From a candidate division TA06 bacterium SM23_40 (lineage in GTDB: Bacteria > LJUI01 > SM1-40): DNA of 31,276 bases. The first letter of the stretch is position 1; each line of letters opens with the position of its first letter. The notes below the pieces were generated by a model that was not told the origin of the DNA, did no database searches, and worked only from the letters and a program-made list of their open reading frames with translations. Below are positions 5,267 to 22,091 of this stretch, in pieces. Position numbers and translations under genes: made by a program. The stretch covers positions 1 through 31,276 of the forward strand of contig LJUI01000012.1 in the NCBI GenBank assembly GCA_001303705.1. The letters run 5' to 3'.

Positions 5267-5926
5267 CTACGTCTCCCTTCCCGACTCGATCTGCGAGGCA
5301 AGCCAATCGGTCCACCGATCGACTCCCTCGCCGGTGCGGCAGGAAGTTTGGAATATCTGGAGTTGAGCGTTGACCGTAAGCGCTGATTGCCTCGCCTGCT
5401 CGATGTCGAAATCGATACCCTCGACGAGATCAGTCTTGTTGATCACAAGGACGTCTGACTCGCGGAAGGCGAGTGGATACTTCGTGAGTTTGTCGTCACC
5501 CTCAGGCGTGCTCAGTATGGTTACGCGGATATCCTCTCCTAGCCGGTAGTTCGCCGGACAGACGAGGTTGCCGACATTTTCGATAAACAGCACTCTTATG
5601 TCATCGAGGGATAATGAAGAAAGGGCAGCCTTCACCATCCGTGCATCGAGGTGACATGCCCCCCCTGTATTGATCTGAACAGAGGGCACGCCGACCTCAG
5701 CGATACGGCGAGCATCAACGTCGCCCGTGATGTCGCCCTCCACCACGGCGCAGGGATATCGCGGAGTGAGCTGCTCGAGCGTGCGTACGAGAAGACTCGT
5801 CTTCCCCGCTCCCGGCGAGGACATCAGGTCGACGACAAAAATCCCGTGCTTGTCGAACGTCTCCCGGTTCTCTCTCGCCAGCATCTCATTGGCGGCGAGA
5901 ATGTCCCGTACTACCTTGATCTCCAC
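5267..5926 (-). CDS. hypB: Hydrogenase nickel incorporation GTPase
   Basis: A SIMIBI-class GTPase that drives Ni insertion into the [NiFe] hydrogenase large subunit together with HypA. Visible features are Walker A SSPGAGKT (residues 36-43), the metal-site CH pair C91-H92 in TGGACHLD, C123 in NLVCPA, and the guanine-specificity motif NKTD. There is no His-rich N-terminus, so it probably lacks a nickel-storage role. The open frame extends upstream to a TTG at 5944. I prefer GTG 5926 because GGAGG (5938-5934) lies 7 nt before it and the protein then starts like other HypBs; it has 219 residues. It is the last gene of the hydrogenase operon, 53 nt after hypA. HypC, D, E and F are not in the window. 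Confidence 0.95.
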   Translation of the reverse strand: MEIKVVRDILAANEMLARENRETFDKHGIFVVDLMSSPGAGKTSLLVRTLEQLTPRYPCAVVEGDITGDVDARRIAEVGVPSVQINTGGACHLDARMVKAALSSLSLDDIRVLFIENVGNLVCPANYRLGEDIRVTILSTPEGDDKLTKYPLAFRESDVLVINKTDLVEGIDFDIEQARQSALTVNAQLQIFQTSCRTGEGVDRWTDWLASQIESGRET

Positions 5927-5979
5927 GGCTTCGCCTCCGGACAAATATGCATCACTCCCCGTCGCTCGCGTCTTCTCTC

Positions 5980-6321
5980 CTATTCCACGTCAAGGGAGAC
6001 TATCGCCAACTCGCGCCCCGTGAGTATCTCAACATCACCAGATTCACACACGCGACAGATGAACTCCCATGCCTCCACCCCCGATTCCGCTCCACAGCTC
6101 CTACACCGGATCGTGAGCGGGATCTCCGTTATCTTCAGCGTGGCGCCCTCGGCGGCCGTACCCTTGCTGGAGATCTCAAACCCAAACTCGAGCGGCTCAC
6201 GCTGAACGCCGCTCATCCGTCCGAGCTGCAGGTTGATCCCAACGACCCTCGAGGCCCCGTGGGCCTGAGCTTCCTCTACGGCCGTTTCCACAATCGATTG
6301 GGCAACCGACAGCTCATGCAC
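5980..6321 (-). CDS. hypA: Hydrogenase maturation nickel metallochaperone
   Basis: HypA binds nickel through its N-terminal Met-His-Glu and delivers it with HypB. The protein has 113 residues, the family norm. His2 is present, and the zinc ribbon has C73, C76, C89 and C92 (two CxxC). The open frame runs upstream to 6465 and overlaps hdrB, but the true start is fixed at GTG 6321 because the next codons read HELSVAQ and AGGAG lies 8 nt upstream. It is 61 nt after hdrB and 53 nt before hypB, so probably co-transcribed with both. Confidence 0.95.
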   Translation of the reverse strand: MHELSVAQSIVETAVEEAQAHGASRVVGINLQLGRMSGVQREPLEFGFEISSKGTAAEGATLKITEIPLTIRCRSCGAESGVEAWEFICRVCESGDVEILTGRELAIVSLDVE

Positions 6322-6382
6322 GATGAGTACTCCTGGAAGAGAGCCTTCCGGACCGGCGTCCTGTGTGCTCTGGAGAAGCGTC

Positions 6383-7255
6383 TTAGGCGGGGACCCGCTC
6401 TCGCAGTAGCGGCTCTGGATTGACGATATGCTTGCCCAGCGCCAATTCTTTGTGGGACAGCCCAAACGCCAGCCCCATCAACTGGGTAAAGTAGAAGGTG
6501 GGCATGTTGCCGTAGTCAACGCCGTACTTCTCTTCGATCTCGGTGAGACGGGTATCCAGATTCGCATGACAGAGTGGACAGGCGACGGCAATGGCGTCAG
6601 CACCGACCGCCTTCGCCTCGTTGAAGATATCGTTGACCAGCTTTAGCACAATATCTGTCTCAGTGAGCGAGAAGACGCCTCCACAGCATTCAGTCTTGTA
6701 CGACCAATCGACTGTTGGAATGCCGACACTCTGGAGCACTCTATCCATAGTGACCGGGTATTCACAGACATCGAACTGAGCGGCCTTCGGGGGCCTGGTG
6801 AGAAGACAGCCATAGTAGCACGCCACTTTCAGATCCGACAAATCTCGCTTGACATGGCTTCGTAACGTCCCACTATCCACCCGGTCAAACATCTCCAGGG
6901 GATGTATCACGTGGATCTGCCCCTGGAACGAAGATCCGACAACCTCATCAACATCTTTCCTCAGTTCTTCATCCTCCCCGATCTCATATAGAGCAATCTT
7001 GAAGCGGGAGAAACAGGCCGCACACGGAACTACCATCTCCTCCAGCTTGGTGCGTTCAGCAAGCACCAGATTCTTCATCGGCATCGCAAGCGAGAGTAAC
7101 CGAGAGGTCGAATGAGCGGGCGACGTGCCACAGCATAGCCATCCCGGAACCTCTTCGAGCTCAATCCCGAGGCTTTGACAGACGGCCTTGAACGATTCGT
7201 CGAACTCGGTGCCTGTCGAGTGGAGGGAGCATCCTGGGTAGTACGCGTATTTCAT
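6383..7255 (-). CDS. hdrB: Heterodisulfide reductase subunit B-like protein
   Basis: HdrB carries two non-cubane [4Fe-4S] clusters that reduce a disulfide, or an unknown equivalent, at the end of the HdrABC electron chain. The protein has 290 residues. Both CCG motifs are intact: C9, C41-C42, C78, C81 for the first, and C146/C150, C190-C191, C226, C229 for the second. The start ATG overlaps the end of hdrC by 4 nt (ATGA), indicating coupled translation. No methanogenic CoM/CoB context is visible, so the physiological substrate is unknown; a protein or low-molecular-weight disulfide is possible. Confidence 0.92.
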   Translation of the reverse strand: MKYAYYPGCSLHSTGTEFDESFKAVCQSLGIELEEVPGWLCCGTSPAHSTSRLLSLAMPMKNLVLAERTKLEEMVVPCAACFSRFKIALYEIGEDEELRKDVDEVVGSSFQGQIHVIHPLEMFDRVDSGTLRSHVKRDLSDLKVACYYGCLLTRPPKAAQFDVCEYPVTMDRVLQSVGIPTVDWSYKTECCGGVFSLTETDIVLKLVNDIFNEAKAVGADAIAVACPLCHANLDTRLTEIEEKYGVDYGNMPTFYFTQLMGLAFGLSHKELALGKHIVNPEPLLRERVPA

Positions 7256-7830
7256 CTCGTGACCCTCTTTTCCTTCTTCTTGACCCGGGAAAATAGCCGC
7301 CAGGTGGCGATGGTTCTGCCAAGGCTGAGGCTGGGGAGCATCTTCAGTTTTCCTTTTCGCATCATCTTCATGCCCAAGCCCATGTCCTTGAAGAAATCCC
7401 TGGTGAGCATCTTCAGCATCATCATCATCCCGACCTCGTACATCCGCCCGAACAGCCTGATAGTGGTGAGTCCGCTCCTATAGAACGAGGCAACCCCTGG
7501 CACAGGCGGCTGTATCCCACGTCGGCGGGCGATGATCTTCGCAGCATCCATCACTTTCGCGATGTCGACATCCTGCGGACATCGGGTCGTACAGGTCTCG
7601 CATGCTGCACACATCCACATCGTCTTGCTATGAAGGATGAGATCGTCAAGTCCGAGCCGGACGGCGTGGATGAGCTGCGCGGGAGTGTAATCCATCGCGT
7701 AGCTTGTCGGGCAGCCAGCAGTGCATTTGTTGCACTGGAAGCACAAGTTGACGTCGACGCCGCTTTCGAGCTTGAATGCTCTGGCCAGCTCGGAGGTCGG
7801 TGTGACGAGACCTATCGTTGATTCGTTCAT
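7252..7830 (-). CDS. hdrC: Heterodisulfide reductase subunit C-like protein
   Basis: HdrC is the two-[4Fe-4S] wire between HdrA and HdrB. The protein has 192 residues. Clusters are bound by C30, C33, C36, C40 and by C74, C77, C80, C84. The C-terminal tail is Met- and Lys-rich and may be amphipathic; there is no clear membrane span, so a soluble complex is likely. It overlaps both the protease gene upstream and hdrB downstream by 4 nt. Confidence 0.92.
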   Translation of the reverse strand: MNESTIGLVTPTSELARAFKLESGVDVNLCFQCNKCTAGCPTSYAMDYTPAQLIHAVRLGLDDLILHSKTMWMCAACETCTTRCPQDVDIAKVMDAAKIIARRRGIQPPVPGVASFYRSGLTTIRLFGRMYEVGMMMMLKMLTRDFFKDMGLGMKMMRKGKLKMLPSLSLGRTIATWRLFSRVKKKEKRVTR

Positions 7831-8330
7831 TTCGATCCGCCCCCTAGATATCTCTCGTAGATCAGCTTTCCTGCATTACGCACAGCCTCCTGGACCGGTG
7901 GAGAGAGCCCGGGCTCGACCGCATCGGGAATAGTCAGCGGCTGGCAGGCCAGCACGACGACATCGATGTGGCAGAAGTCGTGCAGCTCCTTGAGGAGATT
8001 CGTCGTCGGAATCTGGTGAATCGAGAAATCACTCAGGTTCCGCTCGGGAAAGTCCTCGAGGCTCACCGGGAAGACCTCCCCGGGCTTTCGACCGCAATCC
8101 ACCGTATCGACGACGACGATCCGGCCGGGCCTCTCGTCGGCGAGGGCGATGTCGAATAACACCTCCCTCACGCTACTTCCCACACTCAGAACGCAGACGT
8201 CGTCAGGAATCTCGTAGCTGTCGCTGATGGTCTCCGCCACGGCCGGACCGAAGCCGTCGTCGCCGAACAGTACATTCCCGCAGCCGAGAATGACCGTGGA
8301 CTTGCCACGCCATTCCATCGACCCGTACAT
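7827..8330 (-). CDS. Hydrogenase maturation endopeptidase (HybD/FrcD-type)
   Basis: A nickel-dependent peptidase that cuts the C-terminal extension from the [NiFe] large subunit once nickel is in place. The fold start and metal loop are clear: VILGCGNVLFGDDGFGP at about residues 13-29, then VVDTVD with the second metal-binding Asp. The open frame begins at 8465 but would overlap mvhA by 100 nt. ATG 8330 has GAGGG 5 nt upstream and gives 168 residues, normal for the family. The gene lies 35 nt after mvhA, its predicted substrate, and overlaps hdrC by 4 nt. Confidence 0.9.
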   Translation of the reverse strand: MYGSMEWRGKSTVILGCGNVLFGDDGFGPAVAETISDSYEIPDDVCVLSVGSSVREVLFDIALADERPGRIVVVDTVDCGRKPGEVFPVSLEDFPERNLSDFSIHQIPTTNLLKELHDFCHIDVVVLACQPLTIPDAVEPGLSPPVQEAVRNAGKLIYERYLGGGSK

Positions 8331-8365
8331 TTCAACCCTCACAACGCGTGAGCTTCCGGCCGCAA

Positions 8366-9808
8366 TCAGCTCGAAAGAGTGTCGATCACCTCGCCCGCGG
8401 CATTTCGGATCTCGATCTTGACAGGAATCGTCCCGTCGAGCTTGTGCGTCGCGCAGGAAAGACACGGATCATAGGCACGGATCGCCATCTCAACACGGTT
8501 CAGGATCCCCTGATCGTACTTGCCGTCTTTGATCAGGGAGGTAGCTGCCTGCTTCACCGACATGTTGATGGGTCCGTTGTTGTGAGTCGTGCCGACGATC
8601 AGGTTACAGTCGGTGATCATACCGTTCTCGTCGGTCTCATAGTCATGGATCAGTGTCCCCCGCGGCGCCTCGGTGCAGCCTACCCCTCGAGCGGCGCGAG
8701 GCTTGACCGGTACCCTGGTCTCCCTGCTGGTGATCTCCGGATCGTTGAGGAGCTGCACAACGAGCTCAGCATTGTACAGGAGCTCAATGAGGCGCGCCCA
8801 GTTGTACAAGAGAGTCTGCTGAGCCGGCCGGCCGAAGTTCTCGCGGAACTCCGCCAGCTCCTGATTCGCGAGCGGTGTGTCGATCTTGTCACAGACATTG
8901 ATACGCGCCAGCGTATTCGTCCGATAGATCCCGACAGGATTGTCGAGATCCATCGAGAAGTTCCCCCATTTCTTGGCGTACGGAAACTTCAGGTAGGTCC
9001 ACGGCTCGATGTGCTCGGCGATGTAGTCCGTATAGTCCTTGTACTCAAACTCCTCGTAGGAACCATCCGGCTTCATCAGTCGCGCCTTCCCATCGTATAG
9101 ATTGAGCCCACCCTCGTCGGTGACGGTGCCCAGGAAGCCGGTAGTGATGACGCCGATTGTCTTCACCGCATCGAGATACTTCGGGAAGAGGCTCTCTTTG
9201 GCAAAGGAGATCGCGAACTTGGCAAACTCGAGCATCTCCTCCGCCATCGGCAAGATCTCATCCCGCTCTTTCTGTGTGAGCGGCTTGCTGAACCCCCCCG
9301 GCACCGCGGTGACAGGATGGATCGACTTGCCAGAGACGACGTGGAGCAGGTGCGCCCCGAGCCAACGCGATCTGACAACCTTCTTCCCGATCTCCGGGTT
9401 CGTCTGAGCGATGCCGATGACGTTTCTCACCGAATAGTCGGCATCAGGACCCATGACGAAGTCCGGACCTGCCAGAAAGAAGAAGTGGAGGATGTGCTCT
9501 TCACAGAATGCTATCGCGTTGCAGAGTTCACGCAGCTTGCGGCCGGCAGGAGGAGGCTCCACCCCGAAGACCACGTCGCACGCCTTGGCCGATGCCAGGT
9601 GATGCGACCAGGGACAGACGCCGCAGATGCTCGTCGTGATGCGGGGCAACTCCTCGACAGGGCGGCCGATACAGAACTTCTCGAACCCCCGGAGCTCCAC
9701 AATCTGGCACATTGCATCAGCCACATTCCCGGCGTCATCGAGCTCAATCGTGACCTTTGCGTGACCCTCCAATCTGGTGACCGGTGCGATCGTTATCGTC
9801 TTGCCCAT
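8366..9808 (-). CDS. mvhA: [NiFe] hydrogenase large subunit, group 3c type (MvhA-like)
   Basis: The catalytic subunit that oxidises or forms H2 at the Ni-Fe(CN)2CO site. The 480-residue precursor has an L1 motif ICGVCPWSHH (C62, C65) and an L2 motif DPCLSCATH (C449, C452). The 25 residues after His455 are the expected cleaved peptide, and the matching protease is the next gene. Cys, not selenocysteine, occupies the L2 position. The N-terminus PVTRLEGHAK is typical of cytoplasmic group 3 enzymes. The start ATG has AAGGAG upstream. It lies 12 nt after mvhG. Context with MvhD and HdrABC supports the F420-non-reducing Mvh-type assignment. Confidence 0.95.
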   Translation of the reverse strand: MGKTITIAPVTRLEGHAKVTIELDDAGNVADAMCQIVELRGFEKFCIGRPVEELPRITTSICGVCPWSHHLASAKACDVVFGVEPPPAGRKLRELCNAIAFCEEHILHFFFLAGPDFVMGPDADYSVRNVIGIAQTNPEIGKKVVRSRWLGAHLLHVVSGKSIHPVTAVPGGFSKPLTQKERDEILPMAEEMLEFAKFAISFAKESLFPKYLDAVKTIGVITTGFLGTVTDEGGLNLYDGKARLMKPDGSYEEFEYKDYTDYIAEHIEPWTYLKFPYAKKWGNFSMDLDNPVGIYRTNTLARINVCDKIDTPLANQELAEFRENFGRPAQQTLLYNWARLIELLYNAELVVQLLNDPEITSRETRVPVKPRAARGVGCTEAPRGTLIHDYETDENGMITDCNLIVGTTHNNGPINMSVKQAATSLIKDGKYDQGILNRVEMAIRAYDPCLSCATHKLDGTIPVKIEIRNAAGEVIDTLSS

Positions 9809-9820
9809 CTTCTTCTCTCC

Positions 9821-10768
9821 TTATCGCTTCGGGAGCGGCCGCAGCCGCTTCTGTGCGCCGATGTACCTGTTCAGCAGCGCCCTTCTATCCTCCACCTGCT
9901 TGGGATCGAGGCCGATGGACGAAATGGCACCGAGCATATCGACCATCGGATTGGCGCCCTTCCGGATGGGGCCGAAACAACCCCGGCACGGCATGTACCC
10001 CTTGACACACCGAGGCACGATCTCCTCGCCCTCTCCCACCATTGACTGGCCGCAGCCGGCTCGCGTCACCGGACCGAGACAGAGGTACCCCTGCTCCATG
10101 AAGCAGCGTGTGTTCTCCCAGGGCCCGTCCTGGTCGAACTGCATATCCTCGAGCAGCCTCTTGATCTGGCCGCCTGCTGCCTTCTTTTCGCGCTTCGTCG
10201 GACACTCATCACAGACACTCCGCTCCGGCAGGTCAAACGGTTTCCCCTCCAGGATCGCGGTGAGCGCGTTGACAATAAGGACCGGTGCCGTCGGGCAACC
10301 CGGAATGTACGCATCGACGTTCACGACCTCATCGATGGCATAGACCCGATCAAGCAATGGCGGTATATTCTCGCTGGGCGTGTCCGCCGCATCGGTCGTC
10401 TTCGACTCCCGATAGACCTTGTCGTATAGCTCTTCGAGCGTCCACATGTTCGCCAGCGCCGGTATGCCGCCGAAGCAGGCACATGACCCGAGGGCAACGA
10501 GGGTCTTACACTTTTTCCTCATCTCTTCGGTCACGTGCTTCTCTTTCTCATTTCTCACACCGCCCGAGATGATTCCCACATCGGCCTCGGGGATCTCCAG
10601 CTCCGTCTTCTCCCCGGTCTGGCCATAATACTTGTGGTCCATGAGCACGGGCATGTGGACGAATTCCAGTTGCGGTAGAAGATCTAGCAACGGTTCCCCT
10701 ATGTCCAGAATCGTCACCTCACATCCGCCGCAGATGTTCAACCACTCTTCTGCCACTTTTGCTGGCAT
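9821..10768 (-). CDS. mvhG: [NiFe] hydrogenase small subunit (MvhG-like)
   Basis: The electron-transfer partner of MvhA. The protein has 315 residues, starts with the proximal-cluster motif CGGCE (C13, C16), and continues with GSCACFGG (C96, C98) and YIPGCP. Further Cys groups in the C-terminal half (DECP, LCLGPVTRAGCG, PCRGCFGP) would bind medial and distal clusters. There is no Tat signal, which fits a cytoplasmic enzyme. GGAGG lies 8 nt before the ATG. It sits between a 67-residue protein gene and mvhA. Confidence 0.95.
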   Translation of the reverse strand: MPAKVAEEWLNICGGCEVTILDIGEPLLDLLPQLEFVHMPVLMDHKYYGQTGEKTELEIPEADVGIISGGVRNEKEKHVTEEMRKKCKTLVALGSCACFGGIPALANMWTLEELYDKVYRESKTTDAADTPSENIPPLLDRVYAIDEVVNVDAYIPGCPTAPVLIVNALTAILEGKPFDLPERSVCDECPTKREKKAAGGQIKRLLEDMQFDQDGPWENTRCFMEQGYLCLGPVTRAGCGQSMVGEGEEIVPRCVKGYMPCRGCFGPIRKGANPMVDMLGAISSIGLDPKQVEDRRALLNRYIGAQKRLRPLPKR

Positions 10769-10791
10769 CTCTCTACCCTCCGCTAACGGTG

Positions 10792-10995
10792 CTACATTGG
10801 TGGCGGACCCTCAACAACCACCTCTGTGACCACCCTCCTCGTGAACAGATAGTGCTTCCTTTCCTCCTCGATCCTTCTCACCTCAAACTCGTCCTTCTCA
10901 TACCCCTCCTGAACCTTCTTCGCCTCTTCCTCGGTCTCGTACGTTGCGCCGTCCCACATGAACTTCTTACCATCGATAACCCGCGCAAGATCCAT
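10792..10995 (-). CDS. Small charged protein between mvhD and mvhG
   Basis: I do not recognise this 67-residue protein. It is rich in Glu, Lys and Arg, has no cysteine and no signal peptide, and probably forms a short helical hairpin with a beta segment near VVTEVVVEG. A strong AGGAGGTGATC ribosome-binding sequence ends about 9 nt before the ATG. It fits tightly between mvhD (19 nt) and mvhG (23 nt) in the same direction, which argues that it is a real gene. It may be an accessory or assembly factor of the hydrogenase, by position only. Confidence 0.7.
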   Translation of the reverse strand: MDLARVIDGKKFMWDGATYETEEEAKKVQEGYEKDEFEVRRIEEERKHYLFTRRVVTEVVVEGPPPM

Positions 10996-11014
10996 AATCC
11001 TGTGATCACCTCCT

Positions 11015-11431
11015 CTATGCTTTGTACGGACTCGGGCCGAGCTCTTTGATCTGCTCTGTCATCTCTGTCACGACCTGAGCAAACTTCTGCCCTTCAGACG
11101 CCGAGATCCACTCCAGGCGGAATCGTTCCGGTTCGAGTCCAAAGTCCTCCAGCATAAGCTCGATGGCCGTTGCTCTATCCTTCGCTTTCTCATTACCTTC
11201 CAGGTAATGGCATTCTCCCAGGTGTCACCCGCAGATGAGGACGCCGTCCGCTCCCTTCGTCAGAGCCTCTATGACCAGATTGGGGTGAATCATACCTGAG
11301 CACATGACCCTGATGATGCGCAGGCTGGGCGGATACTGGACCCTCGAGGTTCCCGCCAGATCTGCCCCCGCATAAGAGCACCAGTTGCATAGGAAGCCAA
11401 GGATGAGAGGTTGGAACTCATCGTTTGCCAT
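11015..11431 (-). CDS. mvhD: MvhD electron-transfer subunit, UGA-encoded selenocysteine
   Basis: MvhD carries electrons from MvhAG to HdrA through a [2Fe-2S] centre. The frame starts at ATG 11431, with GGAGG 7 nt upstream and a 1-nt overlap with the preceding gene's stop. It meets an in-frame TGA at 11227-11225 (codon 69) and then continues open to TAG at 11015-11017. Reading through gives 138 residues, the normal MvhD length. The part after the TGA is clear MvhD sequence ([11 protein letters not shown], then [12 protein letters not shown] and SASEGQKFA). Ligand candidates are C15, C18, C44, C67, U69 and C74. Selenocysteine MvhD/VhuD homologues are known from methanogens. A SECIS-like hairpin follows the UGA. 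A sequencing error or pseudogene is the alternative, but no frameshift or decay is seen. Confidence 0.9.
11191..11209 (-). promoter_or_regulatory. SECIS-like hairpin in mvhD
   Basis: On the minus strand, CATTACC-TGGAA-GGTAATG forms a perfect 7-bp stem with a 5-nt loop, starting 15 nt after the UGA codon, so the apical loop lies 22 nt downstream. A short upper stem, a G among the first two loop bases and this distance all fit the described bacterial SECIS consensus. It is coding as well as structural. Confidence 0.75.
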
Positions 11432-14400
11432 CAATAGACCTCCAGTGCTGCTTCGACCATGGCCATCAGCTGGTCGAGTTTGAATCCCCTGACGAAGATG
11501 CCCTTCTTCGGGCATGTCGCCTGGCAGACACCGCAACCCTTGCACTTCGCCTCGGCGACCTCGACCGTCTTCTTGATCTGACCTTCCTTCATGTATTCGA
11601 TGAGCGTAATCGCCTCAAAGGGACAGGGATCGACACAATAGGCACAGCCATCACAGTTCGCATCGACAACCTCCGATATCGTCGGCTCGAGTTCAACCTC
11701 CTCCTGCGACAGAATCGTAGCCGCCCTCGATGCTGCGCCTCCAGCCTGAGAGATGCTCTCATCAACAGTCTTCGGACAGTGAGCGAGCCCACACAGGAAT
11801 ATCCCATCAGTGGCGAAATCGATCGGCCTCAACTTCATGTGAGCTTCGAGGAAGAACTTGTCCCCGGTCAGCGAAACCTTGAGCATCTTCGACAGTTCTT
11901 CGGCGTCCGCACGCGGAATGATCGCCGCCGCGAGCACCAGCAGGTCCGGTCTGAGCTCGACGTCCGCGTTCAGCATCTCATCGTGAACTACCACGCGCAG
12001 CTTCCCATCCTGATGCGACACTTCGGGCTTCCGATCATCGTGGTAGCGGATGAAGCGGATGCCCATCCGGCGAGCCTCGGTGTAGTACTGTTCCCTCAGT
12101 CCGTACGTCCTGATATCGCGGTACAGAATGAAGACGTCCGCATCGGGCTGTAATTCCTTCATCTTCAGCGCGTTCTTGATCGCCTCCTGGCAGCAGACGC
12201 GGCTGCAGTACGGGCGATCGGGTTCACGCGATCCCACACACTGAATCATCGCCACGGACTTCAGGGACGCGAGATCCGATCCTGCCTCTGATGCGGCTGC
12301 CAGTCGCTCTTCGAACTCACGCTGCGTGATGACTCTCTCGTCCTGACCATAGAGATATTCTGTCGGCTTATATTCCTCCGCTCCGGTCGCCACGATGACC
12401 ACGCCATGTTCGATCTCGGTCTCGGTTCCGTTCTTGGCGATGGTCGACTTGAAGTTGCCAAAGAAGCCTTCAAACGCCGCGAGCCTGGACCCCATATGAA
12501 CCGTTATCTTGGGGTGATTCGTGGTCCGCTCGATCGTCTGAGCTAGCATCTTCTCGACGTCTTCGCCTCCGAGCAAGTAGTGAATGTGTCGCAGATTCCC
12601 ACCCAGCTCGTTCTCCCGCTCCACGATGTGGACCTCGAATCCCTGGTTGGCCAGATTGAGGGCTGCCGTCACGCCGCTCATCCCTCCGCCGATCACCAGG
12701 GCCGCATGGTTCACGGGAACGGACCGGGATACCAGAGGCTCGATCAGTCGGGCCTTGGCCAGGGCCATCCGGATCAGGTCCTTCGACTTCTCGGTAGCCG
12801 AAGCCGGCTCATGCATGTGCACCCACGTGCACTGATCGCGGATGTTGGCCATTTCGAAGAGATAGGGATTGAGGCCACCCTGACGCACGGTCTCACGGAA
12901 GAGCGGCTCGTGGGTCCTCGGGGTACAGGAGATGACCACGACGCGATTGAGGTCCTTCTCCTTGATCAGTTCCTTGATCCGCTCCTGGGTATCTGTCGAG
13001 CACGTGTAGAGATTATCCTCTACGTGCACCACGTCCGGCTGATCCTTAGTGTATCCAACAAGACTGGGGACATCGGCCACTCCCCCGATGTTCTTTCCGC
13101 AGTGGCAGATGAATACCCCGATGCGCGGGTCCTGCCCGCAGACGTCCTTTTCCGGGGGATACTCCCGATGCGCAATGAGACTACCACGCTCTTCAGCGAG
13201 AAGCGCCATCGCATGCGACGCTGCGGCTGAGGCCTCCATTACCGTCTCGGGGATATCCTTCGGCTCCGAGAATGGACCGCAGACGTACACCCCTTCCTTG
13301 GAGGAGTCGACAGGAGATGACGTGTCGGTTACGGCGAAGCCGTACTGGTCGAGTTCGATCCCGAACGTGTCGGCCAGTTCCTTCACGCGCCGCGGCGGCC
13401 TCAATCCGCTCGACAGCACGACCATGTCAAACTCTTCCGTCACGAGCTCTCCGTCATCTCGCTGGTAGCTAATCAAGAGGTTACTGGAGGCAGGTATCTC
13501 CTTTATCGAGGAAGGACGGCACCTCGTGTATTTCACGCCAAGCTCCTTGGCACGATTGTAGTACTCATCGAATCCCTTGCCGAACGCACGCATGTCGATG
13601 AAGAAGATGTGGCACTCGAGCTCCAGATCGTGCTCTTTGGCGATGATCGCCTCCTTGGTCGCATACATGCAGCAGACTGAAGAGCAGTAGTCATGCTCGA
13701 CCTCTCGAGAACCGACGCACTGGATGAACGCAATCTTCCTGGGAGGCTTGCCGTCCGAAGGTCTGAGGACTGTCCCCTGAAACGGACCGCTCGCTGAGAG
13801 TATACGTTCGAACTGGAGGCTCGAAACGACGTTGAGATATCTGTCATACCCGAATTCTTTCTTGAGATCGGGGTCGAATAGCTCGAACCCGGGCGCGAGA
13901 ACAATTGCCCCCACTTCGACATCCTCAATCTTGTCCTGTTGCTCATAATCGATCGCATTCGCTTCGCAGAAGTTCTCGCACGATTTGCACGCATCCCTGA
14001 CGAAGTGAGCACACGTCTCAGGATCGATAACGGCGATCTTGGGGATGGCCTGGGGAAATGGGATGTACACGGACGAACGCTGGGCGAGCCCCATATCGTA
14101 GTCCGAAGTAATGGGCCTGACTTCGCGGGCGGTCACCTCGGAGAGATCCACGGCGTTCGTTGGACAGACGACAGTACATGCTCCGCAGGCGATGCAGATC
14201 GGGGAGTGCTTATCGAACGGCACCGCAACCTTCCTGTCCGGGCCACGGTTTATCAAGGTGACCGCACCGACGTTCATTCTCTCCTGGCAGATGCGGGTAC
14301 AGAGTCCACAGAGGATGCAGTCATCGTCCTTCTTCGGGAACCTGGTCTCCTCAATGCCCATCTCCCGCGCCATCTCCTGGATGTGCTCCGTCTCAGGACA

Positions 14401-14685
14401 CCGCGCGAGCAACAGTTCGAGCATGAGGCGCCGCGTCTTGAGGACCCTCTCTGTGTTGGTGCGAACCTCGAGTCCCTCCTGTGCGGGATAGACACAGGAT
14501 GCCTGGATCCTCGATCTCCCGTTTTGCACGAGCTCAACGAGGCAGACGCGACATGCTCCATACGGCGCGAGCGATTTGTGGTAGCATAGGGTCGGAATCC
14601 GTATCCCCAGCTGCTCGCACGCCTCCAGGATAGTCGTCCCCTCCTCCACACTGATCTGCTGGCCATCGATGGTCAGGTTAATCAT
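11431..14685 (-). CDS. hdrA: NuoG-like / HdrA C-half / HdrA fusion protein
   Basis: A 1084-residue electron-transfer hub. Residues 1-75 are a [2Fe-2S] domain (C34, C45, C48, C64), then a NuoG/HydA-like segment, then two [4Fe-4S] sites (C123, C126, C129, C133; C164, C167, C170, C174). Residues about 205-500 match only the C-half of HdrA ([11 protein letters not shown]225-C240, CVGSRE and SSVCC); the FAD-binding N-half is absent. Residues about 521-990 are a second HdrA module starting [10 protein letters not shown], with a dinucleotide motif VIGGGMSG (664-671) and its own CVGSRE/SRVCC site. The C-terminus is a two-cluster ferredoxin (C1011-C1021, C1048-C1058). The missing first-module N-half is found fused to NuoE at 21183-22091. 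The likely role is flavin-based bifurcation linking NAD(P)H, ferredoxin, H2 and HdrBC. ATG 14685 follows GGGAG. Confidence 0.93.
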
Positions 14686-15139: not shown

Positions 15140-15140
15140 C

Positions 15141-15860: not shown

Positions 15861-16201
15861 CTCGTCCCGGAGATTCCCAGCTCGTAGAGCTTGCCAACGA
15901 CCTCAAACGTCGGCATGTCGGTCACCATGATGGGCATCGCTTCCTGCTCTGCCGCTTCCAGAGTCCCCTCCTCCGGTTCCCTCCCATTGACGAGCACGAT
16001 TCCCGCGAGCTTGTTCATCGAGGCGACCGCCACGATGTTCTGATGAATCTGAAGCGTGATCCAGATATCTCCTTCGTTGCTATTGGCGATCACGTCGCTG
16101 AGGAGATCGCTGGCGTATCCTCCGGTCACGTCTTCGCCAAGCTTTTCTTTCCCGCTTCTAACAGACAGGTCGAGCCGGTCTACTATCTCGGACAGCTTCA
16201 A
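15857..16201 (-). CDS. DRTGG-domain protein (upstream of PHP gene)
   Basis: A single DRTGG domain in 114 residues. The signature region is DVTGGYASDLLSD near residue 24, followed by WITLQIHQN and IVLVNGREPEE. DRTGG domains occur beside CBS domains and in phosphotransacetylases and are thought to bind ligands. It starts at TTG 16201 with GAGAGGATC just before it; the last base of the CBS-HATPase stop codon falls inside this start region (TTGA, 4-nt overlap). It is a paralogue of the protein at 17128-17499. Confidence 0.85.
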   Translation of the reverse strand: MKLSEIVDRLDLSVRSGKEKLGEDVTGGYASDLLSDVIANSNEGDIWITLQIHQNIVAVASMNKLAGIVLVNGREPEEGTLEAAEQEAMPIMVTDMPTFEVVGKLYELGISGTR

Positions 16202-17127
16202 GATCCTCTCCCCTGCTCAGTAAATATGCAGACCTTCAGATGAGTCCCTGATCCGACATCCGAGGTGAGCACCATTTCATCGGCGCACTTCTGGATATTG
16301 TTCAGACCCATACCCGCTCCAAACCCGAGCTCTCTCACCCACTCCGGAGCCGTCGAATACCCCGGCTGCATCGCCTTCTCTACGTCAGGGATACCCGGAC
16401 CCGAGTCCCTCACGTCAACCACGATCTTCTCGGGATCGATCTCGCACGATATCTTGCCCCCCGGCGTGTACACAACCACATTCATCTCCGCCTCATACGT
16501 CGCAATGGCGACCCGGCGGACGATACGGGGATCTATCCCCAGACGCCTCAGCGTTGTCTTCAGCCCGCTGGCACTCTCCCCCGCCCGCTCGAAGTCCTGA
16601 CCGACGACGTCATACTCGAACAAGAGCTTCGTCCGGTCGGCCAGAATGTCCTCAAAGATATGGCTCGCGCGATAGCGATGGATCTCTTCCTCGCTGTAGT
16701 CGATCTCGAGCTTCCTCAGAAGCCCCTCAATAACGAGACCCGCGGTAATGATCCCCACCAGCTCGTTCGTTTCGCGATCGATGACGGGGAACCGGCCGTA
16801 GCCAAGTTGCTCCAGTTTGTTGACAGCGGTCACGAGTGGCTCGTCGGCGTACAGCGTCTTCACATCGCGCGTCATCTTTGCCCCTATGGGGCAATCATCT
16901 TCTCTGTTTGCCAACCACTTGATGAAGTCCTCCAGGCTGATGATACCGACGAGTGCATCGCCCTCTACCACGGGAGCGCCTGAAATCCGATTGACGCGAA
17001 GAATCTCCCTCAGTTCGCTCATCTGGGTAGTCGGTCCGACAGTGATCACTTTTCTCCGCATCACCTCCTGAACCTTCATCTCGTATACGAGTTCTTGAAT
17101 CTTGGTGATCTTCTCGTCTCGATTCAA
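16198..17127 (-). CDS. CBS-pair protein with C-terminal HATPase domain
   Basis: 309 residues. Two CBS repeats at about 18-75 (VMRRKVITVGP..., ISGAPVVEGD...LVGIIS) and 84-140 (MTRDVKTLYADEPL, GRFPVIDRETNELVGI) would form a nucleotide-sensing module. Residues about 190-305 are an RsbW-like HATPase with N box (YEAEMNVVVY), G1 (VRDSGPGIPD) and G2 (GFGAGMGLNNI). CBS pairs commonly sense adenine nucleotides or redox cofactors, so this looks like a sensor coupled to an ATP-dependent partner switch. It starts at TTG 17127 with GGAG 9 nt upstream, immediately after the stop of the preceding DRTGG gene. Confidence 0.87.
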   Translation of the reverse strand: MNRDEKITKIQELVYEMKVQEVMRRKVITVGPTTQMSELREILRVNRISGAPVVEGDALVGIISLEDFIKWLANREDDCPIGAKMTRDVKTLYADEPLVTAVNKLEQLGYGRFPVIDRETNELVGIITAGLVIEGLLRKLEIDYSEEEIHRYRASHIFEDILADRTKLLFEYDVVGQDFERAGESASGLKTTLRRLGIDPRIVRRVAIATYEAEMNVVVYTPGGKISCEIDPEKIVVDVRDSGPGIPDVEKAMQPGYSTAPEWVRELGFGAGMGLNNIQKCADEMVLTSDVGSGTHLKVCIFTEQGRGS

Positions 17128-17499
17128 CTAACCACTCTCCGTCGCCTCATAGTCGCCCGGGAGGCCCTCGGTATAGAGCCGGCCACAGGCCTCAAACATC
17201 CGGAACCTGGTTGCGAGCAACGGAATGTTCTTGAGCTGAGCCAGCTTGACGGTCTCATCTGTGGGCTTCTTCCCGCGCACGAAACAGATCGCGACGATAT
17301 CTTGCATCTCTGCCGTTCGCACTGTCTGCTGATTCGTCAGCCCGGTGAGTAAGAGTGAAGCAGGCTTGATGAAGGCGAGGACGTCGCTCATAAGATCGGA
17401 GCCGCAGCCCATCTTGACCCTACGATGCAGAAGATCTTTTCCCACGATGACCTCAGCCTCCAGTACTCTCCTCACGTCCTCGAGAGTCATGCTCTTCAC
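17128..17499 (-). CDS. DRTGG-domain protein (after the Cys-rich miniprotein)
   Basis: A second DRTGG-family protein, 123 residues. VKMGCGSDLMSDVLAF (28-43) aligns with the signature of the other copy, followed by LLLTGLTNQQTVRTAE and ICFVRGKKPTDE. The frame opens at 17547, but GTG 17499 is the likely start: GGAG lies 7 nt upstream and GTGA overlaps the stop of the preceding Cys-rich gene by 4 nt. ATG 17490 is a less likely alternative. It probably works with the adjacent CBS-HATPase. Confidence 0.83.
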   Translation of the reverse strand: MKSMTLEDVRRVLEAEVIVGKDLLHRRVKMGCGSDLMSDVLAFIKPASLLLTGLTNQQTVRTAEMQDIVAICFVRGKKPTDETVKLAQLKNIPLLATRFRMFEACGRLYTEGLPGDYEATESG

Positions 17500-17678
17500 C
17501 AAGGCTCTCCTCTTTTCCAGTCGACTAGAGCATGTTCGAACTCGCATCGCTCACAACGGTACCATCTCGGACACGGTCTATACGACGACACCCGTGAGCC
17601 CGAGAACTTGCAGAGCTGCCATGCAGCCTTATAGCTCTCGTTTCTCTCCTTCTTTTCTGTATCCGACTCGCCATTCAT
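17496..17678 (-). CDS. Cys-rich 60-residue miniprotein
   Basis: A small protein not matched to a named family. Cysteines at 23, 36, 42 and 45 include a CxxC in PCPRWYRCERCEFEHALVD, a pattern that also occurs in some multi-domain redox and GcvH-like proteins of anaerobes. It could bind zinc or an Fe-S cluster. The N-terminus is charged and probably disordered. ATG 17678 follows a GGGGGA stretch 9 nt upstream. The end overlaps the next gene as GTGA, and the start lies 24 nt after the NuoF-GltD stop. Tight packing and the motif argue that it is real. Confidence 0.65.
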   Translation of the reverse strand: MNGESDTEKKERNESYKAAWQLCKFSGSRVSSYRPCPRWYRCERCEFEHALVDWKRGEPW

Positions 17679-17702: not shown

Positions 17703-20700
17703 CTATCCGTGAGCTTCGAGATCGCAGCGGAGACAACGCTTTGCCTCAAGTATCGCCATCTCCTTGGTCAGACCAAGCTCTACTTCTTCGTAACTACGCT
17801 TTCTCTGCTCGACCTCCAGCAGCGGCATCTCGGGGCGATCAAGGTTCCGCCCTTCTTCCTCGGCCAGCTTGACCGGTTCGACCTCCATCAACGGCTTGAC
17901 AACGTCATAGGTTCTCTCCAGGCTCTCGCCCCTGAGGAATTTGTGTATGGACTCAGCCGCAAGTTTCCCGTCGCCGATGGAGTTGGTCACGCTGACCGGT
18001 CCGCTCACCACTTCGCCTCCTGCGAAAACGCCATCCTTGTTGGTGGCCAGAGTCTCGGGATCGACGACAAGCGTGTTACTCTTCGAGATCTCGAAATCGT
18101 GCCCCTCGGGCAAGAACGAGAGATCCGGCTCCTGCATGATGACGGGAATGAACGTGTCGGCCTCGATAGTGAACTCAGAGCCCTTTACCGGAACGGGCCG
18201 CCGGGGACCCCGTCCGTTGCCGCCCCGCTTCGCCATCCGCACACACTCTACGCCCTTGACCTTACCGTTTCCTGATACAATCCTGGTCGGCTTTGCCAAC
18301 TCCTCGAGCCGGACGCCCTCAGCCAGTGCAGCACGGATCTCGCCCTCGGGGGCGGCCATCTCCTGGCGACTCCTCCAGAATACAACGAGAACGTCCCTGG
18401 CTCCCAGACGCAGAGCGGTGCGCGCCACATCGATCGCAGCGCTGCTGCCTCCCACGACACAGACTTTCTCGCCGACCTGCGGATTCTCTTTGAGATTGAC
18501 GGCCCGGAGCAGCGCGAGCGGGTCCAGGACGCCATCTACATCCTCTCCTGGTATCCCGAGTTTCCGGCTCTTTCCTGCACCAGTGGCAATGAGGACAGCC
18601 TTGTACCCATCATTGAACAGAGCATCGATATCCCGCACCGGCGAGTCTATCTTGATCTCCACGCCAGTCTTCTTGATGTAGTCGATCTCTCGATCGACGA
18701 GGTCCTTGGGCAGTCTGAATTCCGGAATCCAGACTGAGAGCATGCCACCGGGCACGGGCAGAGCCTCGAAGATCGTGACCGGGTAGCCGCGACGGGCCAG
18801 GAAGTACCCGGCGCTCAGCCCGGCCGGGCCAGACCCGATGATCGCCACCTTCTCCTCATACCGCTGAGGCGGGGGCTTGACCTTCGGCGTCGCACCCGAG
18901 GAACGCTCATAGTCTGCAACGAATCTCTTGAGCGCCCTGATGGCAATCGGCTTACCCCACTCCCCGGCACGGCACTTCAGTTCGCACATCTGAGGACAGA
19001 CGCGTCCACAGACAGCAGGCAGGGGGTTCTTCTCTCTGATCAGCTCCATCGCTTTCTCGAACTCAGCGCGCGCAATCAGCCCGATGTACCCGGCGGCGTC
19101 CTGGTCGAGCGGGCACGAATACTGACAGGGGGAGGAGATGATCTGCTTGCAGACGACAGCCGGACATCTCTTGTACTTGATGTGTGCTTCGTATTCGTCA
19201 CGGAAATAGCGGATCGTGCTCAATACGGGGTTCGGCGCGGTCCCTCCGAGGGCACAGAGCGACGCGTCCTGAATGGCCTGGCCTAGCTCCTCGAGCATTG
19301 CGATATCGCCTTCCTCCCCCTTGCCCTGGCAGATTCGCTCGAGCACCTTCCACATCACCTCGACGCCCTCGCGGCAGGCAGTGCACTTACCGCACGATTC
19401 GTCGCGCAGGAAGTCAGTGAAGTAACGGGCAACGTCAACGATGCATGTCTCCTCGTCCATGACGATCAGACCACCCGAGCCCATGATCGAACCGGCTTCG
19501 GCCAGGCGTTCGTAGTCGATGGGGAGATCGAGAAGCCTCTCGGGAATGCAGCCGCCGGACGGACCCCCTGTCTGGACCGCCTTGAACTTCTTGTCTCCGG
19601 GGATGCCGCCACCGATATCGAAGACGATCTCACGCATGGTGATTCCCATCGGAACCTCTACGAGCCCGGTATTGCGAACCTTTCCGACCACTGAGAAGAC
19701 CTTCGTTCCTTTGCTCGTCTCGGTCCCGATGCTGGCGAACCACTCCCCTCCGCGATTGATGATCTCGGGAACGTTCGCCCACGTCTCCACATTGTTGATA
19801 TTGGTCGGTTCTCCCCAGACTCCCGAATCGACCGGAAACGGCGGCCGAACGCGGGGCTCAGGGGGATTCCCCTCTAGAGAGGCTATAAGCGATGTCTCCT
19901 CGCCACAGACGAATGCGCCTGCCCCCCGCTGCACCTTGACATCAAAGTCGAATCCTGTTCCGAGAATGTCCTCCCCGAGCAACCCATACTCCTTTGCCTG
20001 TTCTATGGCCAATAGCAGCCTTTCCCGCGCGAGAGGGTACTCGTGTCTGATGTAGATGTGGCCCTGGGATGCACCGATCGCCCGCGCTCCAATGAGCATC
20101 CCCTCCAGTACGGTATGAGGATCTGACTCAATGATACTTCGATCCATGAACGCGCCCGGGTCGCCCTCATCGGCGTTGCAGACGATGTGCTTCCGTTCTC
20201 CCTTGGCGCGTCGAGCCAACTCCCACTTCTTCCCGGTAGGGAACCCAGCGCCGCCGCGGCCCCGCAACCCGGACTCCTTGATCTCCTCGATGATCCCCTC
20301 AGGAGTCATCTCGGTGAGAGCCTTGACGAGCGCAGTGTATCCACCGCGAGCGATGTATTCGTCGATCTTCTCTGGATCTATCAGTCCACGATTCCTCAGG
20401 GCGACCAGTCGCTGCTTGCCGAAGAACCCGATATCGGCCATTATCGGCACGGGCATCTCCTCTGCTGGAGGCGTGTACATCAGCTTCTTGACGGGCCGGC
20501 CCTTGAGGAAGTGCTCCTCGACCAGATGAGGTATCTCCTCTTCGGTCAGCAGCTGGTAGAAGATCCCCTCAGGCAGAACATGCATGACCGGCCCCTGGGC
20601 ACAGAACCCGTTGCAGCCGGTCATGACGATCCCAACTTCATGTTCGAGCTCATGCTTCCTCAGCTCGCGCTCCAGGGCTTCCTTTACCTTGAACGACCTA

Positions 20701-20756
20701 TTCGATACGCAGCCCGTTCCTGCGCAGAGCATCAGATGTGTCCTGTATTTCTCCAT
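17703..20756 (-). CDS. NuoF/HydB-like NADH subunit fused to GltD/NfnB-like flavoprotein
   Basis: A 1017-residue fusion. Residues 1-90 are a thioredoxin-like [2Fe-2S] domain (C11, C16, C48, C52). Residues about 110-530 are NuoF: FMN/NADH site GLRGRGGAGFPTGKKW (163-178), CNADEGDPGAF, and the [4Fe-4S] motif ESCGKCTAC with a distant C501. Residues about 531-1017 are a glutamate-synthase small-subunit/NfnB-like FAD-NAD(P)H domain with N-terminal Cys clusters (C583-C595), GSGPAG (641-646) and a second nucleotide motif VVGGSSAAID. The protein ends with CLRCD. It would exchange electrons between NAD(P)H and the Fe-S chain of the HdrA hub. ATG 20756 is chosen over TTG 20759 because GAGGGAG lies 7 nt upstream. 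Confidence 0.92.
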   Translation of the reverse strand: MEKYRTHLMLCAGTGCVSNRSFKVKEALERELRKHELEHEVGIVMTGCNGFCAQGPVMHVLPEGIFYQLLTEEEIPHLVEEHFLKGRPVKKLMYTPPAEEMPVPIMADIGFFGKQRLVALRNRGLIDPEKIDEYIARGGYTALVKALTEMTPEGIIEEIKESGLRGRGGAGFPTGKKWELARRAKGERKHIVCNADEGDPGAFMDRSIIESDPHTVLEGMLIGARAIGASQGHIYIRHEYPLARERLLLAIEQAKEYGLLGEDILGTGFDFDVKVQRGAGAFVCGEETSLIASLEGNPPEPRVRPPFPVDSGVWGEPTNINNVETWANVPEIINRGGEWFASIGTETSKGTKVFSVVGKVRNTGLVEVPMGITMREIVFDIGGGIPGDKKFKAVQTGGPSGGCIPERLLDLPIDYERLAEAGSIMGSGGLIVMDEETCIVDVARYFTDFLRDESCGKCTACREGVEVMWKVLERICQGKGEEGDIAMLEELGQAIQDASLCALGGTAPNPVLSTIRYFRDEYEAHIKYKRCPAVVCKQIISSPCQYSCPLDQDAAGYIGLIARAEFEKAMELIREKNPLPAVCGRVCPQMCELKCRAGEWGKPIAIRALKRFVADYERSSGATPKVKPPPQRYEEKVAIIGSGPAGLSAGYFLARRGYPVTIFEALPVPGGMLSVWIPEFRLPKDLVDREIDYIKKTGVEIKIDSPVRDIDALFNDGYKAVLIATGAGKSRKLGIPGEDVDGVLDPLALLRAVNLKENPQVGEKVCVVGGSSAAIDVARTALRLGARDVLVVFWRSRQEMAAPEGEIRAALAEGVRLEELAKPTRIVSGNGKVKGVECVRMAKRGGNGRGPRRPVPVKGSEFTIEADTFIPVIMQEPDLSFLPEGHDFEISKSNTLVVDPETLATNKDGVFAGGEVVSGPVSVTNSIGDGKLAAESIHKFLRGESLERTYDVVKPLMEVEPVKLAEEEGRNLDRPEMPLLEVEQRKRSYEEVELGLTKEMAILEAKRCLRCDLEAHG

Positions 20757-20785
20757 CAACTGGCTCCCTCTATCTCTCGAACTAT

Positions 20786-21169
20786 CTAGGATACCCGTTC
20801 ACTCCCTATCGCAAGAGCATATTCGGTTACGATCTGGCCGCCGAGTACGTGTTCCTCGAATATCCGGTTCGCCTTCTCCTCAGTGAGATCGATATACTTG
20901 ACAGGAGCCTCTCCCTTGAGCTCGATCGTAGCCATGGGCTCGTGGGCACAGAGACCAGCGCAACCAGACGTGGTGAGGATAATGTCCTTTAACTGCCTCG
21001 CTTCCACCAGACCGAGGAACGCGCTCATGATCTTGCGTGCGCCGGCAGCGATTCCGCACGTCCCCATATGCACAGTGATTTTCGCCCTGGCATCGCCGTC
21101 ACGCAGGCTCATCGTCCTCGCCATCGTCTCCCTGATCCTCTCCAGATCACCAGGCGTCAACTTGGGCAC
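20786..21169 (-). CDS. [2Fe-2S] thioredoxin-like ferredoxin
   Basis: 127 residues of the small ferredoxin family that accompanies NuoE/NuoF in bifurcating hydrogenases. Motifs are VHMGTCGIAAGARK (C38) and TSGCAGLCAHEP (C70, C74). Only three family cysteines are obvious, so the fourth cluster ligand is unclear. It starts at GTG 21169 with GGAG 8 nt upstream. It sits 13 nt after the HdrA-NuoE fusion and about 29 nt before the NuoF-GltD gene, where it could bridge the two. Confidence 0.88.
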   Translation of the reverse strand: MPKLTPGDLERIRETMARTMSLRDGDARAKITVHMGTCGIAAGARKIMSAFLGLVEARQLKDIILTTSGCAGLCAHEPMATIELKGEAPVKYIDLTEEKANRIFEEHVLGGQIVTEYALAIGSERVS

Positions 21170-21182
21170 GGTTCACTCTCCT

Positions 21183-22091
21183 CTAGTCCTTGTATCTATC
21201 GAGGAGCGCGACGGCGTCGGCCGCGTTCAGCTTGCCGTAGAGATCGTCTCCTATCGTAATGACGGGAGAGAGACCGCAACACCCGATGCAGCGCACTCCT
21301 TGCAGTGTGAATTGCATGTCCGGCGTCGTTTCGCCTACCTTGATGTCGAGCTCACGCTCGAACCGATCGAGGATCCTACCTGCACCCTTGACGTGACAGG
21401 CAGTACCCAAGCAGACAGTGATGATATGCTTTCCTCTCGGCACCAGGCTGAACGACTTGTAGAAGGTGGCTATCCGCACGATATGTTCAATCGGTATCCG
21501 CTTCGCCTGCGATATACGCACCAGAACGTCGGCGGGCAGCCAGTTGAACTCTTCGCTGATGTCCTGGAGGATCGGAACGAGGACCTCCTGACCGCCGTCG
21601 TATCGGTCGAGAATCTCGTCAACCTTTCCACGCATTGACACATCGAGATCGATCTCCGGCAGGAGGGCGGGCTCGAGATAGGCAAGGTTTCTCACAAGGC
21701 AGTTCTCGACACACTCGCCGCAGCCCGTGCATTTGTCTTCGTCTATGTATCGGGCCTTCCTCCTCACGCGGACCACGAATCTTCCGGCCGCCCCCTCTAC
21801 CTCCTCAACCTCGGAGTAGGCGAGCTTCTCGATATTGAAATGACTCCCGCAATCGACCATCCGGGGAGCAAGCGTACACATGGCGCAGTCGTTGGTGGGA
21901 AAGGTCTTATCCAGCTGGGCCATCACTCCCCCGATCGACGGCCCTCTCTCCACCAGATAGACTTTGTATCCGGAGTCGGCAAGATCGAGCGACGCCTGCA
22001 TCCCTCCGATTCCGCCACCGACGACCATTACCGCCCCGACTTTCTTGTCGCTCCCTTCCGCCGTTTCTTTGCTATCGTTCTCTTCCGCCAT
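21183..22091 (-). CDS. HdrA N-terminal half fused to NuoE
   Basis: 302 residues. Residues 18-131 are the FAD-binding N-half of HdrA: VVGGGIGGMQASLDLA, then AQLDKTFPTNDCAMC (59-72), and a [4Fe-4S] site C121, C124, C127, C131. The HdrA homology stops there. Residues about 150-302 are NuoE/HydC with [2Fe-2S] ligands C227, C232, C268 and C272 and the helix FNWLPADVLVRIS. The rest of the HdrA module is in the 11431-14685 protein. The open frame extends to 22358. ATG 22091 is preferred because GAGG lies 8 nt upstream and the longer version would cross the predicted promoter. It is the first gene of the operon. Confidence 0.92.
   Translation of the reverse strand: MAEENDSKETAEGSDKKVGAVMVVGGGIGGMQASLDLADSGYKVYLVERGPSIGGVMAQLDKTFPTNDCAMCTLAPRMVDCGSHFNIEKLAYSEVEEVEGAAGRFVVRVRRKARYIDEDKCTGCGECVENCLVRNLAYLEPALLPEIDLDVSMRGKVDEILDRYDGGQEVLVPILQDISEEFNWLPADVLVRISQAKRIPIEHIVRIATFYKSFSLVPRGKHIITVCLGTACHVKGAGRILDRFERELDIKVGETTPDMQFTLQGVRCIGCCGLSPVITIGDDLYGKLNAADAVALLDRYKD

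Follow-up and report, generated by a model that had tools for sequence, protein, structure and literature searches.

A divided HdrA enclosing Bfu-type subunits in a putative tandem-bifurcating [NiFe]-hydrogenase operon

We analysed a 31,276-nucleotide stretch of DNA from candidate division TA06 bacterium SM23_40 (contig LJUI01000012.1, hereafter the window), which carries an operon for an MvhADG-type [NiFe]-hydrogenase, the subunits HdrA, HdrB and HdrC, and the NuoE, NuoF and HydA-like subunits (BfuC, BfuB and BfuA) of the HydABC-like (Bfu) electron-bifurcating enzymes. We found that the first HdrA module is divided between two genes, with Bfu genes filling the gap and Bfu subunits fused to both halves, an arrangement that points to one complex with two bifurcating cores. 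The window is contig C35 of a metagenome-assembled genome (MAG) of 2.88 Mb that is 89.8% complete and is the sole genome of its phylum in the comparison set.

Results

The hydrogenase and heterodisulfide reductase genes

Pfam and NCBIfam profiles delimit an operon of 18 genes on the minus strand, reading from 22091 to 5267. The initial annotation had counted nineteen; the parts that it named, MvhADG, HdrABC, NuoE, NuoF-GltD and maturation genes, are all present in this interval and on this strand, but the count is 18 even with a conserved small open reading frame (ORF) of 67 amino acids (10792-10995), which also lies between mvhD and mvhG in relatives. Likewise, the gene first taken for a ferredoxin is there (20786-21169), but its product is an HndB-type, thioredoxin-like [2Fe-2S] protein (NCBIfam fdxn_Clost, 1.2e-7), whose position is conserved in relatives.

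The large subunit MvhA (8366-9808) is group 3c-like, carries the motifs SICGVC and DPCLSC and matches NCBIfam VhuA (4.5e-140) and MvhA-type chains of the PDB, and the small subunit MvhG (9821-10768) is identified by Pfam and by NCBIfam VhuG (5.9e-68). MvhD is encoded at 11015-11431, HdrC at 7252-7830 (CoB_CoM_SS_C, 5e-20) and HdrB at 6383-7255, the last with two CCG domains (two Pfam stretches; NCBIfam HdrB, 1e-48; HdrB chains of the PDB).

HdrA is split inside its inserted ferredoxin domain

The HdrA that had first been annotated as a plain subunit is in fact distributed over two genes with fusions on both sides, as seen from NCBIfam matches and from alignment to the methanogen structure 5odc_A. 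The first gene (21183-22091) encodes the N-terminal half of HdrA module 1 followed by NuoE/BfuC. Residues 1-131 are the half that binds flavin adenine dinucleotide (FAD), with a GxGxxG motif, the sequence TNDCAMC and one CxxCxxCxxxC motif, and NCBIfam HdrA2 matches residues 19-134 (1.5e-47, profile positions 140-256); a NuoE/HoxE match follows at residues 149-301. This fusion is also present in 11 aligned relatives, in which the [2Fe-2S] cysteines C227, C232, C268 and C272 are invariant, and further genomes were found by profile.

The second gene (11431-14685) encodes a protein of 1084 amino acids that begins with a BfuA/HydA-N domain (about residues 1-180) holding one [2Fe-2S] and two [4Fe-4S] clusters (Fer2_4 and Fer4); by eye, the domain lacks the His/Cys-ligated NuoG-type cluster motif and in this resembles Type 2 BfuA. 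Next come the C-terminal half of HdrA module 1 (about 190-505) and then a second HdrA module, present in full, with two C-terminal [4Fe-4S] clusters, an organization shared with full-length relatives. The protein aligns to 5odc_A in three displaced blocks: residues 164-431 to 246-498, residue 518 onward to residue 2 onward, and the C-terminal clusters at 902-1079 to 475-648. The break in HdrA falls inside the inserted ferredoxin domain. An assembly artefact was considered as the origin of the split and rejected, as the same split occurs in many independent genomes.

Residues E356 and K409 (5odc_A numbering) are held to mark a bifurcating HdrA flavin (PMC12054007, PMC9430772). Module 1 has E and K at these positions, both of which (E293 and K344) are unchanged across 17 relatives, and by eye the residues for flavin-based electron bifurcation are present in module 2 as well.

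A continuous relative and the case for one complex

In a myxococcote MAG, locus L078 encodes the same parts as a single ORF of 1259 amino acids (8304-12080), in the order HdrA N-half, BfuA, HdrA C-half and second HdrA module. Its predicted structure, a single-chain model of moderate confidence (mean pLDDT 61.8), matches HdrA structures over the whole length (8rvy_A, 8.5e-39; 5odc_A, 2.3e-36) with a TM-score of 0.78 to 6tjr_A by target length, and the insert matches 9mqx_A, the BfuA of a tungsten aldehyde oxidoreductase Bfu, at 41% identity. Elsewhere the N-half of HdrA is a small separate ORF ahead of NuoE (L034, L035, L078, L087), and L112-L114 encode a type I-like HdrA that is divided at the same position, with its halves fused to NuoE and BfuA. 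Archaeal HdrA of type III has GltD inserted at the corresponding point (PMC12054007), and the order HdrA N-half, GltD, HdrA C-half was seen in many of the HdrA loci compared.

These arrangements are most simply read as a single HdrA flavin fold to which two chains contribute, the NuoE-bearing chain and the BfuA-bearing chain; on this reading the NuoEF/BfuA core and the HdrA core should be unable to assemble separately. A flavin domain shared in this way argues strongly against separate Mvh-Hdr and Nuo complexes; together with the continuous version in L078, it is stronger support for one complex, as the initial annotation had proposed, than operon proximity. The idea of two unrelated complexes in one operon was rejected on the divided flavin domain, the fusions and the recurrence of the arrangement. 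It is also very improbable that an Mvh-Hdr hydrogenase and a NuoEF-GltD transhydrogenase or dehydrogenase are two enzymes sharing an operon. MvhADG-HdrABC and HydABC-type enzymes do occur as separate complexes in other organisms (PMC9304861), and the same genome has a stand-alone NuoE/HndB/NuoF/HydA-N set on contig C124 (L130), with RnfC on the same contig; but the single HdrA flavin domain is divided between the two supposed enzymes, with fusions on both sides and a continuous form in L078, the arrangement is conserved over several phyla, and it arose also in the type I-like HdrA of L112-L114.

NuoF retains the B2 cluster ligands and has exchanged its ferredoxin domain for GltD

NuoF/BfuB (17703-20759) consists of a thioredoxin-like N-domain, a domain for flavin mononucleotide (FMN), the ligands of clusters B1 and B2, and a GltD/NfnB-type NAD(P)H domain. 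It aligns with HydB of Acetomicrobium mobile (7t2r_B) over residues 4-542 (7.6e-232) and has the Nuo51 FMN, SLBB and NADH_4Fe-4S domains of BfuB (PF01512, PF10531 and PF10589). All five B2 ligands are kept (C438, C476, H525, C531 and C536 in A. mobile HydB numbering), and the His and three of the Cys are invariant in 14 relatives. These ligands, four Cys and one His, mark bifurcating BfuB, and the His is reported absent from non-bifurcating HydB homologues (PMC9304861).

The C-terminal ferredoxin domain of BfuB, which holds clusters B3 and B4 (IPR017896), is replaced in the window by Fer4_20 and GltD. The same replacement is found in L020, L026, L033, L046, L086, L120, L141, L144 and L146, whereas the ferredoxin domain is kept in L021, L022, L028, L029, L030, L034, L035, L050 and L074. 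When the two states are labelled on a NuoF tree of 36 rows they change eight times, and seven of these changes are forced by well-supported branches, a count to which recombination between the two parts of the nuoF gene could add. Under the domain definition published by Schut et al. (2022), the window NuoF is Bfu-like and falls short of a strict Bfu member for want of the ferredoxin domain that close relatives have. GltD carries the motif YRRTR, typical of NADPH-binding GltD, in relatives and FWRSR in the window, where its preference between NADH and NADPH is uncertain.

The exchange raises a different reading of the same single complex, in which NuoE-NuoF-GltD is a non-bifurcating NAD(P)H wire into HdrA and only the flavin or flavins of HdrA bifurcate, comparable to the NADH-dehydrogenase modules thought to serve FlxABCD-HdrABC. 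The replacement of B3 and B4 by GltD suits such a wire, as do the proposal that GltD in type III HdrA is an NADH entry (PMC12054007) and the finding that the flavin in the GltD of Stn is not a bifurcating one (PMC10482914). We nevertheless regard it as rather unlikely: the window keeps all five B2 ligands, including the diagnostic His, four of them are invariant in the 14 relatives, and many close relatives retain the ferredoxin domain.

The remaining genes and the neighbourhood of the operon

Between nuoF and the BfuA-HdrA gene lie five regulatory genes (14678-17547), encoding a DRTGG-domain protein (17128-17547; PF07085), a CBS and HATPase protein (16198-17127), a second DRTGG-domain protein (15857-16201), a PHP-domain protein (15141-15860) and a kinase-like HATPase protein (14678-15139), all identified by Pfam. 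There are also three hydrogenase maturation genes, for a HycI/FrhD-type protease (about 7827-8330; Pfam and NCBIfam), HypA (about 5980-6330; Pfam, 5.9e-30) and HypB (5267-5944; Pfam cobW/HypB, 6.8e-22).

Neighbouring genes are mostly less than about 30 bases apart or overlap, with larger gaps of about 155 bases after nuoF and of about 50 and 35 bases near hypA-hypB, and promoter- or terminator-like matches along the operon are no more frequent than in shuffled sequence. We infer that the operon is one transcript. Chance co-location is excluded because the same gene set and order recur in other phyla.

Directly downstream are two genes of bacillithiol synthesis, one for BshC (3179-4816) and one for a GT4 glycosyltransferase that is a possible BshA (1837-2958). 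The adjoining bshC prompts the suggestion that the disulfide of a bacillithiol-type low-molecular-weight thiol could be the substrate of HdrB; a tblastn search for bshC gave no match in the loci of the relatives, which weakens this idea.

MvhD as a predicted selenoprotein

To stay open, the mvhD reading frame requires an in-frame TGA (11225-11227) to be translated as selenocysteine, and with this codon read through the product matches FlpD (1.7e-55). Relatives have Cys at this codon, except that L066 also has TGA, and a tRNA-SeC gene is present in the genome of the window; the selenocysteine reading rests on this exchange and on the tRNA. A hairpin after the TGA (z -1.16) is unconvincing alone.

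Recurrence of the arrangement and variation of its partners

One scan of genome contigs gave 70 loci. Full-length relatives of the BfuA-HdrA protein have 66-71% identity in Planctomycetota and one Gemmatimonadota MAG and lower identity in Bacteroidota, WOR-3 and myxococcotes. The recurring order is HdrC, HdrB, HdrA N-half-NuoE, HndB, NuoF, DRTGG, CBS/HATPase, DRTGG, PHP, HATPase, BfuA-HdrA, MvhD, the small ORF, MvhG and MvhA, so that the survey of gene order called for at the outset recovered the set and its order in several phyla. The hdrC and hdrB genes follow mvhA in the window and precede nuoE in relatives, staying in the operon either way. By profile search, the fusion of the HdrA N-half to NuoE was found in five of 392 Planctomycetota-group, three of 296 Bacteroidota-group, two of 249 Gemmatimonadota-group and 19 of 147 WOR-3-group genomes sampled, and twice in one Eisenbacteria MAG.

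The partners vary. MvhGA accompanies the core in the window and in three phyla, Planctomycetota, Gemmatimonadota and Bacteroidota, where MvhDG(A) follows immediately downstream; it is not beside several of the WOR-3 copies. Flx-like genes are nearby in L030. In L050, from a Bacteroidota MAG, a cytochrome-b (NarI-like) protein with HdrC-like sequence, and thus QmoC-like, is encoded at 2187-3494, just upstream of the HdrA N-half-NuoE gene, which suggests a quinone-linked version. The split-HdrA/BfuA gene of L034, in a myxococcote MAG, has MvhD and MetV/MetF domains behind it (9971-15310), a possible Bfu-driven methylene-tetrahydrofolate reductase.

The genome of the window is itself rich in Hdr, with 11 matches to FlpD/MvhD and at least about 15 stretches of HdrA (on C176, C86, C98, C171, C46, C12, C67 and C47; L121-L129), several of the HdrA/MvhD stretches having an in-frame TGA and some an inserted GltD. 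A second, contig-truncated copy of the operon on C64 (L127, 1-9497) extends from the GltD end of NuoF to MvhG; its composition matches and its MvhD has Cys, not selenocysteine. Another cluster at a contig end, on C27 (L131), contains distant relatives of MvhG/MvhD and HdrBC.

Discussion

Proposed electron path

Domain composition, the split, the fusions, the cofactor ligands and the conserved neighbourhood, all read from sequence, make it fairly probable that the operon encodes one soluble, multi-subunit [NiFe]-hydrogenase complex of tandem electron bifurcation or confurcation, in which the low-potential exit of HdrA feeds the Bfu core. In such a complex, H2 would be oxidized at MvhA and electrons would pass through MvhG and the selenocysteine-containing MvhD to the C-terminal clusters and FADs of HdrA. 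From the HdrA flavin, the high-potential electron would go through HdrC to a disulfide-type substrate at HdrB, and the low-potential electron would leave at the position of the inserted ferredoxin domain, which would be wired into the BfuA clusters and closed to free ferredoxin. From these clusters electrons would reach cluster B1 and the FMN of NuoF, where the FMN, acting with the [2Fe-2S] clusters of NuoE (C1) and NuoF (B2), would reduce NAD+. GltD terminates the remaining arm, the one that in HydABC enzymes reduces ferredoxin, and this arm would thus probably exchange electrons with NADP(H); in close relatives with the ferredoxin domain retained, ferredoxin would be the partner. The whole path may also run backwards and make H2. 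It is in line with the tandem scheme put forward for Bam, the class II benzoyl-CoA reductase complex (PMC9304861, PMC9430772).

The initial annotation had suggested that H2, NAD(P)H, ferredoxin and an HdrB substrate could all be coupled. Coupling of H2, NAD(H), NADP(H) and the HdrB substrate is plausible, whereas a role for free ferredoxin is unsupported, given the exchange for GltD in NuoF and the interruption of the HdrA ferredoxin exit by BfuA and NuoE.

Several points weigh against this model. The window has no B3 and B4 clusters as such, although these belong to the “absolutely conserved” Bfu core, and bifurcation at the FMN may have been lost with them. The predicted structures, of the L078 ORF and of NuoF-GltD, are of single chains, and that of NuoF-GltD (pTM 0.38) is too poor to interpret. 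Two further points bear on the direction of flow: RnfC is encoded in the genome, and CdhC/acetyl-CoA synthase has no match in this MAG of about 90% completeness.

Compatible with the tandem complex, and differing from it in direction only, is a mainly H2-evolving, confurcating enzyme in which NAD(P)H drives proton reduction at MvhA, jointly with ferredoxin (in relatives) and perhaps with a thiol pair at HdrB. The absence of a CdhC match means that acetogenic use of H2 is not indicated. HndB and the regulatory cassette accompany it, as they do hydrogenases of fermentative bacteria. The model of Bam by Schut et al. has BfuABC oxidizing NADH and ferredoxin to feed HdrA (PMC9304861), yet in methanogens MvhADG-HdrABC oxidizes H2, and all such enzymes are reversible. 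On balance we see H2 evolution as a possible but somewhat doubtful main direction.

A wider formulation joins these features: one enzyme with two bifurcation chemistries in series, the bifurcating FAD of HdrA and the FMN and iron-sulfur clusters of NuoEF, hard-wired by the shared flavin domain; a Bfu core in which an NAD(P)H arm has repeatedly taken the place of the ferredoxin arm; and, in the window, a coupling of H2, a disulfide, NAD+ and NADP+ that dispenses with free ferredoxin. Taken as a whole this could well be correct, and we advance it tentatively, at a little less than even confidence.

Four bifurcating families are known, Bfu and HdrA among them. With Bfu subunits built into the HdrA flavin domain, tandem bifurcation, an idea put forward until now for the membrane-associated Bam alone, could be tested in a soluble hydrogenase. 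NuoF in turn has repeatedly exchanged its ferredoxin domain for an NAD(P)H domain, which provides natural swaps that probe the essential parts of the disputed FMN and iron-sulfur mechanism, and these are informative because B3 and B4 were thought to be absolutely conserved. Moreover, in Planctomycetota, WOR-3 and other uncultured lineages, annotating the genes one by one (as NuoE, NuoF, HdrA and hydrogenase) can make a single enzyme look like several.

Comparison with known systems

A full-text search of the open literature turned up neither a split HdrA that hosts a Bfu module nor a NuoF in which GltD replaces the ferredoxin domain. The earlier view of an undescribed system thus holds there for the combination of split HdrA, Bfu and MvhADG; a HydABC-like module and HdrA in one complex are already known from Bam (PMC9304861).

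Bam, the class II benzoyl-CoA reductase (BamBCDEFGHI of Geobacter and Desulfosarcina; PMC9304861, PMC9430772), is the closest precedent, a characterized complex that also joins BfuABC (BamIHG) to an HdrA-type module. The HdrA homologue of Bam has two flavin sites with the bifurcation signature, and tandem bifurcation has been proposed for it (PMC9304861, PMC9430772). In Bam, however, BfuABC and HdrA are described as separate subunits with a tungstopterin catalytic partner, whereas in the window HdrA is split by and fused to the Bfu subunits, the partner is [NiFe] MvhGA with HdrBC, and NuoF carries GltD; none of the Pfam-scanned proteins of the window is a tungstopterin BamB or BamC subunit.

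With the MvhADG-HdrABC of hydrogenotrophic methanogens (5odc) the window shares MvhA, MvhD, MvhG, HdrA, HdrB with two CCG domains, HdrC and the E/K flavin signature. It differs in having a second HdrA module, a first module divided between two genes rather than held in a single chain, selenocysteine in MvhD, and an inserted ferredoxin domain that is interrupted by NuoE/BfuA and not open to free ferredoxin. In the NiFe-HydABCSL (NiFe-Bfu) enzyme of A. mobile (7t2r; PMC8880783), a group 3 [NiFe]-hydrogenase likewise feeds a HydABC-like core, but this enzyme is without HdrA or HdrBC and has the ferredoxin domain on HydB, and the hydrogenase of the window is placed to connect through MvhD and HdrA, not directly with HydA.

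HdrA of type III with GltD (PMC12054007; the Moorella HdrA in PMC9430772) has a foreign redox module at the same point of the inserted ferredoxin domain. There GltD lies within one chain, whereas in the window the insert is BfuA and NuoE, the chain is broken with whole genes between, and GltD is on NuoF. The Stn/Nfn-Bfu transhydrogenase (PMC10482914) also combines a GltD-type NAD(P)H domain with a HydBC core, but its GltD is on the NuoG-like (BfuA) subunit and its HydB keeps the ferredoxin domain that GltD replaces in the window. Finally, FlxABCD-HdrABC and HdrABC-MvhD-MetVF are likewise HdrA complexes with exchangeable partners, including NAD(H), but are without a Bfu core, whereas the split-HdrA loci L030 and L034 join the Bfu-HdrA core with Flx-like and MetVF genes, respectively.

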